From Rhodoferax saidenbachensis (GTDB lineage Bacteria > Pseudomonadota > Gammaproteobacteria > Burkholderiales > Burkholderiaceae_C): a stretch of DNA of 64,000 bases. A model generated the notes under the pieces. The model had not been told where the DNA came from. It searched no databases and was given only the letters and a program-made list of their open reading frames with translations. The stretch lies in contig NZ_CP019239.1 of NCBI RefSeq assembly GCF_001955715.1, forward strand, positions 3,534,001-3,598,000. The letters are read 5' to 3'. Below are positions 5,728 to 52,799 of this stretch, in pieces. The position numbers were made by a program, and so were the translations under genes. Within the stretch, counting starts at the first letter, position 1; each line of letters opens with the position of its first letter.

Positions 5728-5774
5728 CATTTGCTATTGATTCAATAGCTGCTCACGCAATCTGGATGCGGGCC
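5728..5774 (+). repeat. Interspersed repeat A, copy 2 (abuts repeat B)
   Basis: GCTATTGATTCAATAGC is a perfect palindrome at the left end, followed by TGCTCACGCA and a degraded GGGCCAGG. Its right end runs directly into the 269-bp repeat B, so one element may have inserted at the edge of the other. Confidence 0.65.
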
Positions 5775-6043
5775 AGGTCCTATTCACACCAATTTCCCGA
5801 GTGCGAACGGGGTTAAAACAGCGCCAATCTAGGCGTGCGACGACGCCCAGACCGGGTGTCTGGGCTAGGAGTGCAACAACGGGTGGCGCTGTTTCAACCA
5901 CGTTCCCTTCGGGTTGCGGCCAAAAAGGCCATGCGCGGCGTTGCGAAGCCTTGCCGGGGGCCAACCCCGGCTGCGTTTCGCGCCTTGCGCATGGCCTTTT
6001 TGATCCGCAACGCATCTCGGGAAATTGGTGTGAATAGGCCCTA
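5775..6043 (-). repeat. Repeat B, copy 1: 269-bp three-way-junction element
   Basis: Terminal inverted repeats pair (TATTCACACCAATTTCCCGA near 5781 with its complement near 6018-6038). Inside are two long hairpins. One has AAACAGCGCCA/TGGCGCTGTTT and GCCCAGAC/GTCTGGGC arms (about 5807-5915). The other has AAAAAGGCCATGCGC/GCGCATGGCCTTTTT and GCCGGGG/CCCCGGC arms (about 5918-6015). A second copy lies at 51666-51934. The TAG stop of the transporter gene that begins at 6937 is the first three bases of this element. Confidence 0.85.
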
Positions 6044-6937
6044 ACGCACTAAAACAAGCACAGTTCCGAATACGGTCAAGCCCGCACCCAGCCAGGCACC
6101 TTGTGCCGGCGCGCGGCCCAGACGCCACCACAACAGCGGCAACACCAGCACCGGTGAGACGGAAGACAGGATGCCCACCATGCCCACATCCCCGTGCTGC
6201 AAGGCTAGCAAGATCAGGCTCATGCCCAGCCCCATGCCGATAAACCCACTCAGGGCCACCAGCGACAACACGCGGTGTGTCGGCGCCTGTTGCGCACGGG
6301 CCGGCGCAAAGCCCACCCACAGCAATACGAAGTGGGCCACGCTGGTCGCCGCCACGCGCAGCACGGTCGCGGCTACCGGGTCGACCCCTGTGACCATGAC
6401 GGGCTTGGCAATCAGCGAACCCAGCGCCTGACACAAAGCCGCCAGCAGGCCCAAAGCGACACCCAGCAGCCACGGGCCGCGCACAGTCTCCCAGGCGTGG
6501 GATTCATCCTTGTGGCTGCCCCAGGCCACTGCGGTCATCACACCACCGACCACCAACGCACCGCCCAGCATGGCTTGCGCGCCCATGCGTTCGTCGAGCA
6601 GTGCAAACCCCATGAGTGCACTGAACAGCGCATGGGTGGCGAACAACACGCCGGTGCGCCGTGGCCCCAGGCGATTCATGGCGGCAAACAGCGCCGTATC
6701 GCCTACAAAGATGCCGATCAGACCGCTGAATGCCAGCACCGCCGCCTGGGCCAGCGTCATGCTGTGCCAGCTGCCCGTGAACAGCACCACCGGCAGCAAC
6801 ATGCAAAACACCAGCAGCATGCGCCAGCGCGTGAACGCAATCGCGCCCAGATGGCGCGCCTGTGGCGCCGACAGCACGCTGGTCAGGGCCCAGCAGCTTG
6901 CGGCCCCCAGGGCCAGCCAGTCGTAGGACCAGGACAC
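6041..6937 (-). CDS. EamA/DMT-family inner-membrane transporter
   Basis: 298 residues made of two homologous halves of five predicted membrane helices each, the layout of the drug/metabolite transporter (EamA) family. The first half ends in FSALMGFALLDERMGAQAMLGGALVVGGV, and the second half repeats the pattern with VSPVLVLPLLWWRLGRAPAQGAWLGAGLTVFGTVLVLV. Members export amino acids, metabolites or drugs; the substrate is unknown here. The stop codon TAG is contributed by the end of repeat B. The gene lies downstream of ychF with a 19-nt gap on the same strand, so the two may be co-transcribed. Confidence 0.88.
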   Translation of the reverse strand: MSWSYDWLALGAASCWALTSVLSAPQARHLGAIAFTRWRMLLVFCMLLPVVLFTGSWHSMTLAQAAVLAFSGLIGIFVGDTALFAAMNRLGPRRTGVLFATHALFSALMGFALLDERMGAQAMLGGALVVGGVMTAVAWGSHKDESHAWETVRGPWLLGVALGLLAALCQALGSLIAKPVMVTGVDPVAATVLRVAATSVAHFVLLWVGFAPARAQQAPTHRVLSLVALSGFIGMGLGMSLILLALQHGDVGMVGILSSVSPVLVLPLLWWRLGRAPAQGAWLGAGLTVFGTVLVLVR

Positions 6938-23173: not shown

Positions 23174-24187
23174 AGAAAGTATTCCGTGCAACGGAACCTG
23201 TAGTGGAGCCAGCAAGAGGCTGGCAGGGAGCAAAACGCTAAACTGTACCCATGGTGCGACTCGATGTCGCTTCTGTAGCTGAACTAATCAGCCTTTCAAA
23301 GCGCAGTCTCCCTCTGGGAAACTGTAGTTTACTCCCTCGGGAGTAATCATCAGAAGATCGCTATTTGCCTGCAAATAGTGATCGTGGATTTGCCCGGGAG
23401 GGCGAATCCTCAACGCGGAAACCATCCTTGGATGGGGTTTTCGTTGTCAATATGCCACATTGAAACGTAAAAGTTTGTAAATGTGGGGCCGCTACTTTGG
23501 CGGCAAAACAGAGCGTTACCGCTCTCTGTGTCTTGTTTCCTAAGAAACCACGTCTGGAACGGCGTGACCTCGACTGCACGTGCATCTGGAGTAATTCGGG
23601 TGTGCGGAGCTACGGATAAACGAACTGTGCGCAAGCACATAAGGCTGACGCGAGTCAGTCCCAATCCCACGAGCAAGAAGTGGGTAGGTCGCCGAGGTAT
23701 AGGGTATGGGAAATGTAATGTGAACTCTCGTCTGAACCGTCGTTAACAGTAAATAGCTAACGCTTGTTTCCCTCGCATGGGGGGAGCTATGGCCAAAAGG
23801 CACGAAGTCTGGATGCTCCTGTCATTGGCTGAGCATCGTTCCCTATACGACTTCCGGCGGATAGAGAGTCCCTAACCCCATCTTCTGGCTTGCCAGCCAG
23901 ATGGGCACAGAGGGAAACGAGGTAAGCCCCACTCACCGCCAGCCCGCAAGGGTTGGCAACCTGCGAGTAATCAAAGGCCATGGTGGCGGGGGTAGAGGAT
24001 TGAGCAAAAAACGAATGGCCGTCTGTAATGGACGGTATAGGGGCTCTGCCCCGCAGTGAAAGCTGGCTGACTTGCTCAGGGTGCGACAGCGTAAAGCCGT
24101 TGCGACTTTTAACTATGACCCAGAGGGTATCTGACCCTCTGGGTCAGTGCCTTCTTCAAATGGGTTGTTACCTAACTGGAGAATGGT

Positions 24188-25942
24188 ATGGAACACATCG
24201 GCAACGATGCTGCGTCTCCGGACGAATCAAGTGAATGGCACTCCATCGATTGGAAGGCCGTCATGCAGTTCGTAGGAAAGGCGCAGATGCGCATTGCGCA
24301 GGCAGAAACGGAGAAGGATTTCCGACGGGTCGCAAGACTCACACGGAGCCTGATCCGATCCTGGCAAGCAAGGGCACTTGCTGTCAGGAAAGTAACGGAA
24401 AACCAAGGGAAGCGAACGAGTGGCATCGATTGCGTCCTATTGGATACGCCAACGAAGAAATGGAATGCGATAAGTTGTCTTGTCAGTAGAGGATACCGAG
24501 CGAAACCCTTGCGGCGAGTTTGGATTCCGAAACCAAATGGAAAGGAAAGGCCATTGGGCATACCGACCATGAAGGACCGCGCGATGCAAGCGCTTTTTCT
24601 GCTTGCACTGGAACCTGCTGTGGAATGTGCGTCCGACCCGAATAGCTACGGCTTTAGGAAGGGGCGATCAACACATGACGCACGGAGCCAGTTGTTCGTA
24701 TCTCTATCCCAGAAGGCCTCGGCCTCTTGGGTGCTGGATGCGGATATCTCTGGGTTCTTTGACAACATCAACCATGACTGGCTGCTGAACCACGTCCACA
24801 TGGACAAGGTGACGTTGCGAAAGTGGCTGAAATCTGGAGTGATTGACGCGGGTCAACTCCAGCGCACGGATGAAGGCACGCCGCAGGGCGGCATCATCTC
24901 GCCGACGTTAGCGAACATCACGCTCAACGGTCTCGAAACTGGTTTGATGCGATTCCTCCGGGGAAAGTTGAAAGCCAAAGGGGTCGCAGCGGGTAAGGTG
25001 AACTTGGTCAGGTATGCAGATGACTTCGTGGTGACGGGCAGCTCGAAAGAGTTGCTTGAAACTGTGGTTCGACCTTGGATTGTGGAATTCCTGCGCGAGC
25101 GGGGACTGACGCTGTCCGAGGAAAAGACGCGCATCGTGCATATCGATCAGGGATTTGATTTTCTAGGGTGGAACTTCCGTAAATACGGGGGCAAGCTGCT
25201 CATCAAGCCGAACCAGAAAAACGTGAAAGCGTTCTACGGCAAGGTGAAGGAAATCATCGCCACTTCGGTGTCGGTTCCAACAGAAACGCTGATAAAGCGC
25301 CTGAGCCCAATCTTCAAAGGTTGGGCTCAGTACCACAGGGGAACGGTTGCAAAGCAAACCTTCAACAAAATTGATTCTCTGATTTATTGGAGGTTGATGC
25401 GTTGGGGTCTGCGAAGGCACCCCCGCAAGACTTCGGGCTGGGTGTACGAGCACTACTGGAAACAGTGTGGTTCACGCAAACAGTTCGCAGGATTGCAAGA
25501 TGACCCGTTCGGGGGTGTGGAGAGGATACCGCTACCGCTGTATCGCCTCTCGGATATGAAAATTGTCCGACACACCAAGGTCAAGGGGGATTACAACCCC
25601 TTTCACCCGGATTGGGTTGCCTATGGCGAGAAACTGCGTGTGCAACGGATGGGTGAAACCATCTGGAGCGCGCAAAGGGCCTCGCTGTGGTTCGACCAAG
25701 GTGGTAAGTGCGCTCTCTGTGAGCAAAACATAGACATGGCTGATGAAAACATGGACGACCACCATATCGTCTATCGGCAGCTAGGCGGGAGTGATGCTCT
25801 CTCCAATCGGGTGCTGTTACATCCGATCTGTCACAGGCGTGTCCACGCCCTAGGTTTGAAGGTTATCAAGCCGGTCCCCAGTACGGGGGACTTTAATCTG
25901 GCGAAGCAGTCGAAGGTTGTGCAACCTGATGACGCTGTGTAG
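24188..25942 (+). CDS. ltrA: Group II intron reverse transcriptase/maturase with HNH endonuclease
   Basis: 584 residues, full length. The RT domain includes KPNGKERPLGIPTMKDRAMQ, SYGFRKGRSTHDA, GTPQGGIISPTLANI and the catalytic YADDFVV (276-282). The thumb/maturase X domain follows with IFKGWAQYHRG. The C-terminal HNH nuclease has CALC (508-511), DDHHIV and HPICHRRVH. The domain set suggests the chloroplast-like (CL) class. The protein helps the intron RNA fold and splice and copies it into DNA during homing. The ribosome site CTGGAGAATGG is just upstream of the ATG. No frameshift or missing catalytic residue is seen. Confidence 0.96.
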   Translation: MEHIGNDAASPDESSEWHSIDWKAVMQFVGKAQMRIAQAETEKDFRRVARLTRSLIRSWQARALAVRKVTENQGKRTSGIDCVLLDTPTKKWNAISCLVSRGYRAKPLRRVWIPKPNGKERPLGIPTMKDRAMQALFLLALEPAVECASDPNSYGFRKGRSTHDARSQLFVSLSQKASASWVLDADISGFFDNINHDWLLNHVHMDKVTLRKWLKSGVIDAGQLQRTDEGTPQGGIISPTLANITLNGLETGLMRFLRGKLKAKGVAAGKVNLVRYADDFVVTGSSKELLETVVRPWIVEFLRERGLTLSEEKTRIVHIDQGFDFLGWNFRKYGGKLLIKPNQKNVKAFYGKVKEIIATSVSVPTETLIKRLSPIFKGWAQYHRGTVAKQTFNKIDSLIYWRLMRWGLRRHPRKTSGWVYEHYWKQCGSRKQFAGLQDDPFGGVERIPLPLYRLSDMKIVRHTKVKGDYNPFHPDWVAYGEKLRVQRMGETIWSAQRASLWFDQGGKCALCEQNIDMADENMDDHHIVYRQLGGSDALSNRVLLHPICHRRVHALGLKVIKPVPSTGDFNLAKQSKVVQPDDAV

Positions 25943-25957
25943 CCAGTGGTCGTGCGT

Positions 25958-25991
25958 GAGCCGTGTGCGGTGAAAGTCGCAAGCACGGTTC
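25958..25991 (+). ncRNA. Group II intron domain V
   Basis: 34-nt hairpin GAGCCGTGTGCGGTGAAAGT followed by CGCAAGCACGGTTC, with the catalytic AGC triad at 25959-25961, a GAAA tetraloop and the two-base bulge. It is the most conserved part of the ribozyme and confirms the intron. Confidence 0.93.
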
Positions 25992-26014
25992 TTAGGGGGG
26001 GATATCATCGAAAG

Positions 26015-26833
26015 ATGGAATCCCTACCCTCCATTTTAGCCAGTGCGCCCCCTGTTCAGCTGATCCTGTCGGTTTTGGCCGCCATTGCCTATGCCTGGCC
26101 GGCGCTACGGGCCCAGCACTTGAGCATGCGCACCGCCAAGGCCTGGGTGGGCGTAGCGTGGCTGTTACACGGAACGGTGCTGGTCTGGAGCCTGTGGGGC
26201 GCGTCAGCCCGTTTTGGTTTTGCGCCCGCCCTGTCCATGACCACTTGGCTGGTAGCGGCGGTGTACGGGGTGGAGAGCCAGTTCTTCCCGCAACTGCCCA
26301 CCCGCTGGGCGCTGAGCGCCATTGGCGCGGCCGCGGTGATGCTGGCTTTCATATTCCCGGGCAATGCCATGCCCAACACCGCCTCCGTCTGGTTGCCGAT
26401 GCATCTGGCTTTTGGCGTAGCCTGTTACGGCCTGTTTGGTACGGCAGTGGTGCACGCCTGGTTCATGACCCGGGCCGAAAAACACATTCGCCACGCCGAA
26501 GACCCGCACAGTGGCCTTCCCTTGCTGACATTGGAGCGCCTGACTTACCGATTCGTAGCGGGCGGTTTCGTCTTGCTAAGCCTGACGCTGGCGCTCGGCT
26601 TTGGTTATGGCGATGTGTTGTACGGCCTTGACCACGCATGGCACTGGGACCACAAGACCGTCTTCTCGGTGCTGGCCTGGCTGACCTTCGCCACGCTACT
26701 GGTAGGTCGCGCGGGCTTTGGCTGGCGCGGCAAGCGGGCTGTGGGTGTCCTCTATACCGGATCGGCCTTCCTGCTGCTGGCCTATGTAGGCTCGCGCTTT
26801 GTGATGGAGATTGTCTTGGGGCGCACGTTGTGA
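26015..26833 (+). CDS. CcsA/HemX-like cytochrome c assembly protein (interrupted by intron at its start)
   Basis: 272 residues if read from the ATG at 26015 that lies inside intron domain VI. About eight membrane helices are present. The family motif WHWDHKTVFSVLAWLTFATLL (about 206-226, shown as landmark) matches the WxWDxKxxxSLxxW region of CcsA/YpjD-type proteins, which handle heme at the membrane. The native start is probably the ATG at 23251-23253, next to the intron's 5' end: joining it to sequence after 26032 or 26035 gives M-I-L-A-S or M-L-A-S in frame. Splicing would therefore restore the gene, while the unspliced RNA could still be translated from 26015. It heads the run ccsA-PP0621-pilS-pilR-ampD. 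Confidence 0.82.
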   Translation: MESLPSILASAPPVQLILSVLAAIAYAWPALRAQHLSMRTAKAWVGVAWLLHGTVLVWSLWGASARFGFAPALSMTTWLVAAVYGVESQFFPQLPTRWALSAIGAAAVMLAFIFPGNAMPNTASVWLPMHLAFGVACYGLFGTAVVHAWFMTRAEKHIRHAEDPHSGLPLLTLERLTYRFVAGGFVLLSLTLALGFGYGDVLYGLDHAWHWDHKTVFSVLAWLTFATLLVGRAGFGWRGKRAVGVLYTGSAFLLLAYVGSRFVMEIVLGRTL

Positions 26834-49613: not shown

Positions 49614-51668
49614 ATGTTTGTACTGTTTGAAGAAGCCGGAAAGTTCATGGCCGGTCGTGTGCTGTCGGAGGCGGAAGCCTCTGCACAGGTGGAGCTGGAT
49701 TCCGGCAAGCGCGTCAAGGTCAAGAGCGCCAATATCCTCATCAAATTCGAGAAGCCCGCCCCGGCGGAGCTGATCGCGGCCGCCCAGGCCCAGGCCCAGG
49801 CCATTGAGCTGGAGATGGCCTATGAGTTTTCGCCGGACGAAGAATTTGGTTTTGCCGACCTGGCCCGCGACTATTTTTCGGCCCAAGCCACGCTGACCGA
49901 GCAGGCCGGCATGTTGTTCAAGCTGTTCGACACGCCGCACTACTTCCGCCGCGCGGGCAAGGGCCGTTTCAAAAAGGCCCCCGCCGACATCATTGCGCAG
50001 GCGTTGGCCGCGATTGAGAAGAAACGCGTGATTGCCGAGCAGATCACCCAGTGGGCGGCCGAACTGGGCGCAGGCACCTGCCCAGACGCCATCAAGGAAC
50101 AGCTCTACAAGATACTGTTCAAGCCCGACAAAAACGCGCCCGAATACAAGGCCGTGGTCGAGGCCAGCCGCGCCACCCACACCGCACCGCTGGAACTGCT
50201 GCAAAAGGCCGGCGCCATTGCCTCGCCCTACCTGTTCCACTGGAAGCGCTTTTTGCTGGAGAACTTCCCCAAAGGCACAGGCTTCCCCGCCATCACCGCG
50301 CCGGCCATTGCGGACGAGTTGCCACTGGCACCGGTGCAGGCCTATTCGATTGACGATTCACAGACCACCGAGATTGACGACGCGCTGAGCCTGCAGGGCC
50401 TGGGCAGCGGCACGGTCACCATCGGTATCCACATTGCGGCACCCGGCCTGGCCGTCCAGCCCGGCAGCCCCATCGACGTGCTGGGCCGCGCGCGCCTGTC
50501 CACGGTCTACATGCCGGGCTACAAGGTGACCATGCTGCCCGACGACGTGGTGCAAACCTACACGCTGCAGGAAGGACGTGACTGCCCGGCCCTGTCGCTG
50601 TACGTGACGCTGGACGAAGCGACGCTGGAGATCAAGGGCAGCGAGACCAAGCTGGAGCGCGTGCCGATTGCGCACAACCTGCGCCACGACCAGTTGGACG
50701 CCGTGGTCACCGAGCCCTGGCTGCTGGACCCCGCGTTTGAGCATCAAATGACGCCTCAGCCCTTACCTACATTGCGTGAGCAGCTATCATTTTTATACCG
50801 CCTGGCGCGTGACCTGAAAGCCAAACGCGAGGTCGTGCGCGGCAAACCCGAGACCTTTAACCGGCCGGACTACAACTTCCGCCTGGTGCGTGAGGCCGGT
50901 GCACAAGGCACCGAACCGCAAGGCCATGAAGAAGTGCAGATCAGCATCCGCCAACGCGGCGCGCCGCTGGACCTGATCGTGGCCGAGGCCATGATCCTGG
51001 CCAACAGCACCTGGGGCAATCTGATGGCCGAGATGGGCGTACCCGCCATCTACCGCAGTCAGGCCAGCCTGGCACCCGGCGTCAAGGTGCGCATGGGCAC
51101 CAAGGCGCTGCCGCACGCGGGCATTGGCGTTAAAAGCTACGCTTGGGCGACTTCGCCGCTGCGCCGCTACACCGACCTGGTGAACCAGTGGCAAATCATG
51201 GCCTGCGCCCGCCACGGCAAGACCGCCGCACTGGTGGCACCGTTCAAGCCCAAGGATGCCGAACTGTTCGCCATCATCTCGGCCTTTGACACGGCCTACA
51301 GCGCCTACAACGGCTACCAGGGTGCGATGGAGCGCTTCTGGACCATGCGTTACGTGCAGCAACACGGCATCACCGAGCTGGTGGCCACGGTGTTCAAGGA
51401 GAACATGGTGCGTGCCGACGATATTCCGCTGGTGCTGCCCGTCATGGGCGCGCAAGGCCTGCCACGCAACGCCAAGGTGCGTATCAAGCTGGGCGAGATG
51501 GACCTGATCACGCTGGACGTGAATGGTACGGTGATCGAGCGTCTGGACGCACCGGCCCAGACCGAAGCAGCGACGGAAGAAGAGGCGGACGATGAAGACG
51601 ATGTGGCCGGCCCGATTGCGATTGCCGTGGATGTGAGCGAAAGCCCCGAAGCGACCAGCGATAATTAG
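49614..51668 (+). CDS. RNase II/R-family (RNB) exoribonuclease
   Basis: 684 residues. An N-terminal region (about 1-235) differs from typical RNase R, with no clear cold-shock domain. The RNB catalytic core begins AYSIDDSQTTEIDDALSLQ (about 243-261), which carries the metal-binding Asp cluster, followed by TVYMPGYKVTMLPDDVV, RGAPLDLIVAEAMILANSTWG and SYAWATSPLRRYTDLVNQWQI. It degrades RNA 3' to 5'. Residues about 377-395 (QMTPQPLPTLREQLSFLYR) come from an antisense repeat A copy. The acidic tail (EEEADDEDDV) is of low complexity. Its stop TAG is the first three bases of repeat B copy 2. Confidence 0.92.
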   Translation: MFVLFEEAGKFMAGRVLSEAEASAQVELDSGKRVKVKSANILIKFEKPAPAELIAAAQAQAQAIELEMAYEFSPDEEFGFADLARDYFSAQATLTEQAGMLFKLFDTPHYFRRAGKGRFKKAPADIIAQALAAIEKKRVIAEQITQWAAELGAGTCPDAIKEQLYKILFKPDKNAPEYKAVVEASRATHTAPLELLQKAGAIASPYLFHWKRFLLENFPKGTGFPAITAPAIADELPLAPVQAYSIDDSQTTEIDDALSLQGLGSGTVTIGIHIAAPGLAVQPGSPIDVLGRARLSTVYMPGYKVTMLPDDVVQTYTLQEGRDCPALSLYVTLDEATLEIKGSETKLERVPIAHNLRHDQLDAVVTEPWLLDPAFEHQMTPQPLPTLREQLSFLYRLARDLKAKREVVRGKPETFNRPDYNFRLVREAGAQGTEPQGHEEVQISIRQRGAPLDLIVAEAMILANSTWGNLMAEMGVPAIYRSQASLAPGVKVRMGTKALPHAGIGVKSYAWATSPLRRYTDLVNQWQIMACARHGKTAALVAPFKPKDAELFAIISAFDTAYSAYNGYQGAMERFWTMRYVQQHGITELVATVFKENMVRADDIPLVLPVMGAQGLPRNAKVRIKLGEMDLITLDVNGTVIERLDAPAQTEAATEEEADDEDDVAGPIAIAVDVSESPEATSDN
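50741..50800 (-). repeat. Interspersed repeat A, copy 8 (inside RNB gene, in frame)
   Basis: The minus strand reads AAAAATGATAGCTGCTCACG, CAATGTAGGTAAGGGCTGAG and GCGTCATTTG. It keeps the host reading frame. Confidence 0.7.
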
Positions 51669-51934
51669 GGCCTGCTCACACTATTTTTACAAGATGCGTT
51701 GCGGATCAAAAAGGCCATGCGCAAGGCGCGAAACGCAGTCGGGGTATACCCCCGGCAAGGCTTCGCAACGCCGCGCATGGCTTTTTAGGCCGCAACCCGA
51801 AGGGAACGGGGTGAAAACGGCGCCACTCGTTGTTGCACTCCTAGCCCAGACGGCCAGTCTGGGCGTCGTCGCGCGCCTAGATTGGCGCCGTTTTCACCTC
51901 GTTCGCACTTGTAAAAATAGTGTGAACAGGCCCT
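51666..51934 (+). repeat. Repeat B, copy 2: 269-bp three-way-junction element
   Basis: Exactly as long as copy 1. End stems CTCACACTATTTTTACAAG (51673-51691) and CTTGTAAAAATAGTGTGAA pair with each other but differ from those of copy 1. The AAACGGCGCC/GGCGCCGTTT arm also replaces AAACAGCGCC/GGCGCTGTTT on both sides. The remaining core is nearly identical. It fills the whole gap between the RNB stop (TAG included) and the TonB-like start at 51939. Confidence 0.88.
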
Positions 51935-51938
51935 TCCT

Positions 51939-52799
51939 GTGAACCTGCGGTCCTTCAGCACTCTCCAGTTGGCCCTTGGTGCATCCATTGCGGTGCACGC
52001 GGTGCTGATCACCGTGCGTTTTGTCGACCCGGAGTCGTTCAACCGCGTGTTTGAGGACACGCCACTCGAAGTGATCTTGGTCAACGCCAAGAGCAACGAA
52101 AAACCCGAGAAGGCCAAGGCCATCGCCCAGGCCTCGCTGGCTGGTGGTGGTGACGCCGAAAAGGGCCGTGCCACCAGCCCGCTGCCCCCCTCCCTATTGA
52201 CTGAAACCGGCGACACGCAGGAGCAGGAAACCGCCCGCAAACTGCAAAACCTGCAGGAGCAGCAAAACCTGCTGCTGGCCCAGGTGAAAAACCAGTTGGC
52301 CGCCCTGCCCCCACCCGACCCGAGCAAAAACGCCAACAAGGTCGAACAGTCCGAGCAGGAAGAAAAGCGCCGCCAGTTGGTCAAGGTCTTGGCCGAGATT
52401 GAGCGGCGCATCAACATGGAAAACGCGCGGCCCAAGAAACGCTACATCAGCCCCGCTGCGCGTGAAGAGGTGTACGCCGTTTATTACGACGCGCTGCGCC
52501 AGGCCATTGAAGACCGCGGCACGGAAAACTTCCCCACGTCGAGCGGCAAGAAACTGTATGGCGAGCTGACGATGATCGTCACCGTGAACCACGACGGCCG
52601 CGTGCTGGAAACCGAGGTGGTGGAAAGCTCTGGCAACCCCACGCTGGACCGCCGGGCCGCCGCCATTGCCCGCACAGCAGGCCCCTTTGGCAAATTCAAC
52701 AAAGCCATGCGCCGCCAGGCGGACCAGATTCTGGTCGTCTCGCGTTTCAAGTTCACCCGGGATGAAACCCTGGAAGCCAAGGTGTCCAGCGGACCATGA
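51939..52799 (+). CDS. TonB/TolA C-terminal-domain protein
   Basis: 286 residues from GTG 51939, only 4 nt past repeat B. A single N-terminal membrane anchor (LALGASIAVHAVLITVRFV) is followed by a charged, partly coiled-coil periplasmic linker (QEQETARKLQNLQEQQNLLLAQV, about 94-116) and a TonB-type C-terminal domain with LYGELTMIVTVNHDGRVLETEVVESSGNPTLDRRA. It likely transmits energy or structural force across the periplasm. In related bacteria this gene precedes aroE and mtgA; here aroE is absent and mtgA follows after 58 nt. Confidence 0.88.
   Translation: MNLRSFSTLQLALGASIAVHAVLITVRFVDPESFNRVFEDTPLEVILVNAKSNEKPEKAKAIAQASLAGGGDAEKGRATSPLPPSLLTETGDTQEQETARKLQNLQEQQNLLLAQVKNQLAALPPPDPSKNANKVEQSEQEEKRRQLVKVLAEIERRINMENARPKKRYISPAAREEVYAVYYDALRQAIEDRGTENFPTSSGKKLYGELTMIVTVNHDGRVLETEVVESSGNPTLDRRAAAIARTAGPFGKFNKAMRRQADQILVVSRFKFTRDETLEAKVSSGP

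Follow-up and report, generated by a model that had tools for sequence, protein, structure and literature searches.

The locus and the element

The window (the whole 64,000-nucleotide stretch of Rhodoferax saidenbachensis DNA that was analysed) contains a gene for an RNB-domain protein, which is followed by a repeat and by a gene for a TonB-like protein. Another copy of the repeat meets the 3' end of an EamA-family transporter gene. An earlier note on this DNA had reported two copies of the same length, and both were found where it had placed them, in mutually inverted orientation (Table 1). Loci outside the window are given below by their L numbers.

Table 1. Coordinates of the two element copies, their parts and the genes next to them in the window, and a second class of hairpin elements elsewhere in the genome
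Feature	Position	Strand	Remark
RNB-domain protein gene, upstream of copy 1	49614..51668	+	684 aa
TAG stop of the RNB-domain gene	51666..51668	+	TA plus the element's first G
Element copy 1, left TA included	51666..51934	+	269 bp; 51668 is the first base past the TA
Terminal stem, left arm	51667..51693	+	Outer ~16-18 bp match the ends of an IS5-family IS
Terminal stem, right arm	51908..51934	+	
Arm 1, long covarying hairpin	51699..51795	+	Alignment columns 34-130
Arm 1 tip, conserved ~50-nt motif	51723..51773	+	Columns 58-108; occurs also on elements with other ends
Central mini-hairpin CCC-GAA-GGG	51796..51804	+	Loop inverted in other copies
Arm 2, long covarying hairpin	51807..51901	+	Columns 142-236
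Arm 2 tip, conserved sequence	51828..51882	+	Columns 163-217; inverted, weak similarity to the arm 1 tip
TonB-like protein gene, downstream of copy 1	51939..52799	+	GTG start
Element copy 2	5775..6043	-	269 bp; orientation opposite to copy 1
EamA-family transporter gene	6041..6937	-	3' end meets copy 2
TAG stop of the EamA gene	6041..6043	-	Made by the end of copy 2
Hairpin elements with GAGCCTGTTCA ends, own genome			L015, L016, L018, L019, L020, L024, L025, L030, L078

There are 11 full-length copies in the organism's own genome (4.26 Mb, one contig), as well as one truncated copy and a number of end fragments. Among the copies from all loci, some full ones (L007, L009, L102, L112, and L114) are 281-300 bp long and carry 12-31 extra bases. 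The copy at L127:2017-2285 appears, by eye, to break a reading frame rather than to lie between genes, and L224:2088-2209 is a form of about 122 bp in which one hairpin arm is flanked by the usual ends. Short forms made up of ends only, namely a hairpin of about 36 bp in L026, a fragment in L021, and C1:1293846-1293888 in the organism's own genome, are probably deletion remnants.

Folding and covariation

Folded as single-stranded DNA, the two window copies reach -98.4 and -105.1 kcal/mol (z -11.8 and -12.7), and none of 200 shuffled sequences folded as well. In the fold, a terminal stem carries two long arms, with a small CCC-NNN-GGG hairpin at the centre. A three-way junction of the end stem and two arms had been described previously; these three parts are present, and the central hairpin, which had been left out, adds a branch, so the junction is four-way. 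The end stems are as the earlier note wrote them and each copy is self-complementary, with 27-nt end arms that are 96% complementary in both copies. Two types of end stem exist in the organism's own genome, one TATTTTTRCAAG-like and one YAATTTCCCGAG-like. Both arms are of the same type in the 10 copies compared and in L009, with some single mismatches.

A total of 119 elements were collected. The 114 with a length of 260-285 were aligned without structure information, and five were dropped for their length. Pairwise identity in the alignment has a mean of 0.72 and a minimum of 0.45 (2000 sampled pairs). Nine positions of the end stem are variable, and in the left arm two elements differ at 4.6 of these on average. 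Unpaired end stems, the outcome that had been named as speaking against a maintained fold, were not encountered: the nine variable pairs are free of mismatches in 59 of the 114 aligned elements, contain one mismatch in 39, and contain two to six in 16.

Covariation was scored by mutual information with an average-product correction, which is blind to structure. The consensus structure has 95 pairs, and 38 of the 40 top-scoring column pairs and 51 of the top 60 fall within it, where chance would give about 0.3%. In 40 diverse elements, 81 of 102 predicted pairs had changed on both sides with pairing kept; for the inner arms, both-side changes were counted in 18 of 23 and 23 of 24 pairs. The cells of these pairs can pair in 96.4% of cases, compared with 77.7% in shuffled and at most 41.1% in slid controls, a comparison biased towards the structure, because this alignment was also its source. 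The covariation score was 0.503, compared with 0.146 (shuffled) and at most 0.093 (slid). The covariation that the earlier note had expected in copies from related genomes is thus present, and the folded shape is maintained, as it had proposed.

A mobile element with IS5-family ends

The repeat belongs to a known kind of mobile element: it is a non-autonomous MITE with IS5-family terminal repeats. It exists as short, non-coding, dispersed copies, it has terminal inverted repeats in common with an IS, and its site is empty in relatives. For copy 1, the one copy examined in this respect, the element is missing from the locus in all 14 aligned orthologues. Of 99 elements whose flanks were compared, 92 have A at position -1 and 92 have T at +1, while 94 have C or T at -3 and 85 have G or A at +3, which gives YTA-element-TAR. 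TA stands on both flanks in 53 of the 99, a number that random exchange of flanks among the elements also reaches.

The element ends, TAGGGCCTGTT(C/A)ACACTA, nearly match the ends of an IS of about 830 bp that encodes a DUF4096 + DDE_Tnp_1 transposase, and the outer ~16-18 bp are common to both. In NCBIfam this transposase belongs to the IS5 family, ORFB being above the curated cut-off and ORFA alone just below it. Matching ends were found at one DUF4096 transposase locus, L251, and relatives of its ORFA are present in 43 of 399 genomes of the family (E 1e-20). IS ends that match TAGGGC(C/G)TGTTAACAC at two mismatches or fewer, 799-827 bp apart, were found in 27 of the 31 loci scanned, L251 and L280 being one place. 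TA lies on both sides of the IS in 24 of these 27 rows; the search pattern itself began with TA.

The genome of Rhodoferax saidenbachensis contains neither this IS nor any DUF4096 match. IS and MITE occur together in five genomes, fewer than the approximately 10 expected from 43 and 92 of 399. Both findings weigh against the explanation favoured below. Other candidate partners were rejected. The eight DDE_Tnp_1 loci of the organism's own genome have different ends, and no matching ends surround the DDE_3 (IS630-type) transposase at 23 loci in 22 element-bearing genomes. Nine partial end matches did not yield an autonomous IS, and some of them are shortened forms of the element. At the DDE_3 locus L259, two matching end sequences lie 168 bp apart and off the transposase; this is probably a shortened element as well. 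An IS5-type transposase would act in trans on the element and insert it at TA with a 2-bp duplication.

Elements at stop codons

Each of the window copies ends its neighbor gene, the RNB-domain gene or the EamA gene, in TAG. Most of the 14 RNB gene orthologues read on through the insertion point; one, L234, has a TAG there. Stop codons were counted with a trained codon model in the 90 of 119 elements with callable flanks; elements with short flanks or without a recognised end motif were dropped, and copy 2 of the window (L008) was one of these. The stop codon of the neighboring gene is the element's own terminal TAG in 41 of the 90. Gene 3' ends were counted up to 300 nt away: 43 of 80, at the 41 elements, coincide with this TAG, and any other offset between -30 and +90 was seen three times at most. 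As a background, 39 of 246 non-coding YTAR sites are stop codons (469 kb window plus flanking DNA, with a cruder gene call). The crude calls can read antisense frames as genes, and they conflict for L007 and, at copy 2, with the convergent genes of the window itself. Copies of the IS also lie at stop codons, in 9 of 26 gene ends by the crude call.

The element begins with G, so that an insertion into the TA of a TAA or TAG stop yields TAG. The element's G would thereby rebuild the stop, the gene would be spared, and the copy could survive. A target preference and the loss of insertions that do harm may suffice to explain the stop-codon sites. A stop codon that is rebuilt on insertion would be a simple and testable route to a harmless mobile element.

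Occurrence in other genomes

Within the genus, matches were found in three of 41 genomes: the organism's own and two others with matches of 24-29 bp only. In the family, 92 of 399 genomes, in 56 of 141 genera, had matches, many of them full length (about 265-270 bp) and with a minimum full-length identity of 66% among the matches listed. A search of the order with a diverged copy as query gave matches in 30 of 300 genomes, and in 19 of these 30 the listed matches are in the tip segment only. The pattern of the arm 1 tip was found in 56 stretches of public genomes, including Polaromonas, Hydrogenophaga, Curvibacter, Rhodoferax, Variovorax, Hylemonella, Ideonella, and others. Plasmid and phage records matched neither the element nor the tip, and the tip was absent from viral contigs, searched with an exact pattern, and from the E. 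coli genomes searched.

How the stems stay paired

In structured RNAs, G.U pairs are favoured on the functional strand. Mismatches in the three long stems were compared by type, without five column pairs that each had a single mismatch type in more than 10% of rows. After this exclusion there were 118 G.U and 114 A.C mismatches (p = 0.84); before it, there were 33+128+48 = 209 G.U and 44+47+47 = 138 A.C, a lead that comes almost entirely from arm 1 (128 vs 47). Sense copies alone gave 39 G.U and 46 A.C in the long stems. The tips were counted as well, with 21 G.U and 3 A.C in the arm 1 tip and 7 and 9 in the arm 2 tip. The excess in the arm 1 tip and the long-stem lead before exclusion indicate that part of the structure may be read single-stranded.

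Changes on both sides of a pair are common even between close copies. At less than 3% distance there were 47 double and 68 single changes, and at 3-6% distance 412 and 419, the pairs of copies being non-independent in both counts. Spacers are inverted in three of 119 elements (arm 1 of L011, arm 2 of L112 and L213). The central loop was readable in 107 elements and occurs in both orientations as GAA (59) and TTC (14) and as GCA (8) and TGC (3); the loops GGA (16, TCC 0) and GTA (3, TAC 0) had no inverted counterpart.

Template switching between inverted repeats has been reported to leave arm homogenisation and spacer inversion as signatures (accessible part of PMC8604942), and it has been proposed as a source of compensatory change in RNA genes (accessible part of PMC8794818). 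The long hairpins of the element, single-stranded or extruded, would allow one arm to template the other, through template switching or arm-to-arm conversion. Such copying would turn one-sided mutations into paired ones and at times invert the spacer, so that the stems drift and yet stay paired. Since G.U equals A.C outside the few fixed-mismatch columns, double changes are common in close copies, and spacers sometimes invert, stem pairing seems to be kept on the DNA by arm copying, as template switching predicts. The earlier note had allowed two causes, selection for the folded shape and copying that maintains it. For the stems, copying on DNA is favoured; selection is retained for the arm tips and the orientation bias.

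It could be argued that the element is, or carries, a putative functional structured RNA, that selection on RNA pairing alone produces the compensatory changes, and that mobility is incidental. In agreement with this, the tips are conserved, G.U outnumbers A.C in the arm 1 tip and at a few fixed stem columns, and the sense orientation prevails between co-directional genes (45 vs 11). It is nevertheless unlikely, because the long stems outside the fixed columns have balanced mismatches, also in sense copies, some spacers are inverted, and no Rfam family reaches its threshold on the element. A transposase that needs matching ends could likewise keep the end arms identical by selection on transposition alone, the inner structure being unimportant, and the outer ~16-18 bp in common with the IS are conserved as this would require. 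The end stem varies most in columns 19-27, past these common ends, and the inner arms covary as strongly, which makes this explanation improbable.

Apparent covariation could also come from the exchange of cores, by gene conversion, between copies with different end stems rather than from arm copying. Stem type in the organism's own genome is indeed untied from the core tree: L002, of type T, has L004, of type C, as its sister (support 98/85), and a similar clash occurs at L007/L008 (93/86). Core exchange may therefore explain part of the mismatch between stem and core. As the whole explanation it is slightly more improbable still, as it shuttles existing matched stems and creates none, new matched stems differ in most genomes, and it leaves the covariation inside the arms and the inverted spacers unexplained. 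The best explanation overall, to which we give a probability of about 0.6, is a MITE with IS5-type ends that inserts at TA and rebuilds stop codons, whose stems are kept paired by arm copying and whose tips are under selection.

Conserved tips and orientation bias

In the 40 diverse elements, both arm tips are conserved and the stems beneath them are variable. A representative fold of the arm 1 tip is GGC-GCAAACC-[GCA]-GCCGGGT-loop-ACCCGGC-[GA]-GG-[A]-TTTGC-[AAC]-GCC. Similarity of one arm to the other was above every shuffle in five of 12 copies, which is only suggestive of the two arms being inverted duplicates.

Six loci with tip-only matches (L313-L318) were inspected. At L313, L314, L317, and L318 the tip sits on hairpin elements of 189-225 bp with the ends CTAGTGYAGTGCTTCG and (C)TAGTGTCCTGAGT, and the latter resemble, by eye, the ends CTAGTGTCGTGAGTTAGAAG of the DDE_3 locus L277. 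L315 (around 1498-1551) carries the tip on an element with yet other apparent ends, GGGCTGATTGCA / TGCAATCAGCCC, as judged by eye, and L316 belongs to a second end class, GAGCCTGTTCA. Hairpin elements of this class carry the same arm 1 tip and are present in at least nine copies in the organism's own genome. Their ends resemble those of a second DUF4096 IS (L252-L256), GAGCCTGTCTACGATCT, with TNA-like flanks. The tip thus goes with several end classes.

Between co-directional genes, 45 elements are in sense and 11 in antisense orientation (p = 5e-6). As the two ends are almost symmetric, the source of the bias must be the core or a confounder, for example replication direction. These counts are not what a strand-symmetric process acting on DNA alone would predict, and they weigh against the explanation given above. 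A scan of the element found no terminators and one weak promoter-like match at the right end. Together with the G.U excess in the arm 1 tip, the orientation bias hints that a tip acts on one strand, perhaps as RNA, and this is the weakest and the most interesting part of the case. We infer, with less certainty than for the stems, that selection falls on the conserved tips and that these function on one strand, perhaps within a transcript reading through from the upstream gene.

A further, tentative possibility is that the tip of about 50 nt is a portable module, carried throughout the order on MITEs whose transposon families are unrelated (two classes of IS5-type ends and others, one of which is IS630-like by eye). 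It would be read in sense transcripts of elements that sit exactly in stop codons and have a putative benefit for element or host, for example protection of the upstream mRNA or recruitment of a host factor, the stems being kept paired by DNA copying and not by RNA selection. If a tip common to elements with unrelated ends is real, a factor other than the transposase would recognise or preserve these elements.

Comparison with known systems

No Rfam 15 family reached its gathering threshold on the element; the best match in a relaxed search, mir-337, scored 17.9 bits where the threshold is 80 (E = 0.33) and was rejected. The earlier note had not recognised a named element, which holds for Rfam; the general kind is known, being that of a MITE with IS5-family ends. 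The IS5-family IS (NCBIfam NF033580) is alike in its outer ~16-18 bp, in the TA of its YTAR target, and in having some copies at stop codons; it differs in being about 830 bp long and in encoding a transposase, which the MITE, with its double-hairpin interior, lacks.

REP/REPIN elements, which are moved by RAYT transposases, are dispersed, intergenic, and made of two hairpins. The element is similar in these respects; it differs in that its arms are much longer, its terminal repeats are of the IS5 type, and its flanks are TA. The Correia/NEMIS, RUP, and ERIC MITEs, as far as the accessible parts of PMC10969869 and PMC2229807 describe them, are also short, non-coding, and intergenic, with terminal inverted repeats and a stable fold, and MITE transcripts are stated in one of these reviews to form stable stem-loops. 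Compared with what is described there, the element is longer, has other ends, lies at stop codons, keeps its length and fold across 66-94% identity, and has a tip that occurs also with other ends. A MITE has been cited for Polaromonas JS666, and it may or may not be the same element. The constant length and fold at great sequence distance, the stop-codon sites, and the tip with other ends are unusual for a MITE. No earlier description of the family was found by title or abstract opening in a search whose scope left the subscription literature largely outside.

The inverted repeats attributed to template switching (accessible parts of PMC8794818 and PMC8604942) resemble the element in multi-base compensatory change, arm homogenisation, and inversion of the loop or spacer. 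Those cases come from RNA genes and from coding DNA of yeast; the present one is a family of mobile elements with very many paired changes. Compensatory change is commonly read as proof of a functional RNA. This family is a natural system in which the mismatch pattern and the spacer inversions point to copying of DNA, and by these two features selection on RNA can be told apart from DNA copying.

Other sequences in the window

A short, palindrome-like sequence, TTTGCTATTGATTCAATAGCTGCTCACGCA, adjoins copy 2 (window 5728-5760); similar repeats presumably occur in related bacteria. Group II intron signatures, RF02012 and RF00029, are present on the + strand at 23548-26032, around an ORF at 24188-25942.
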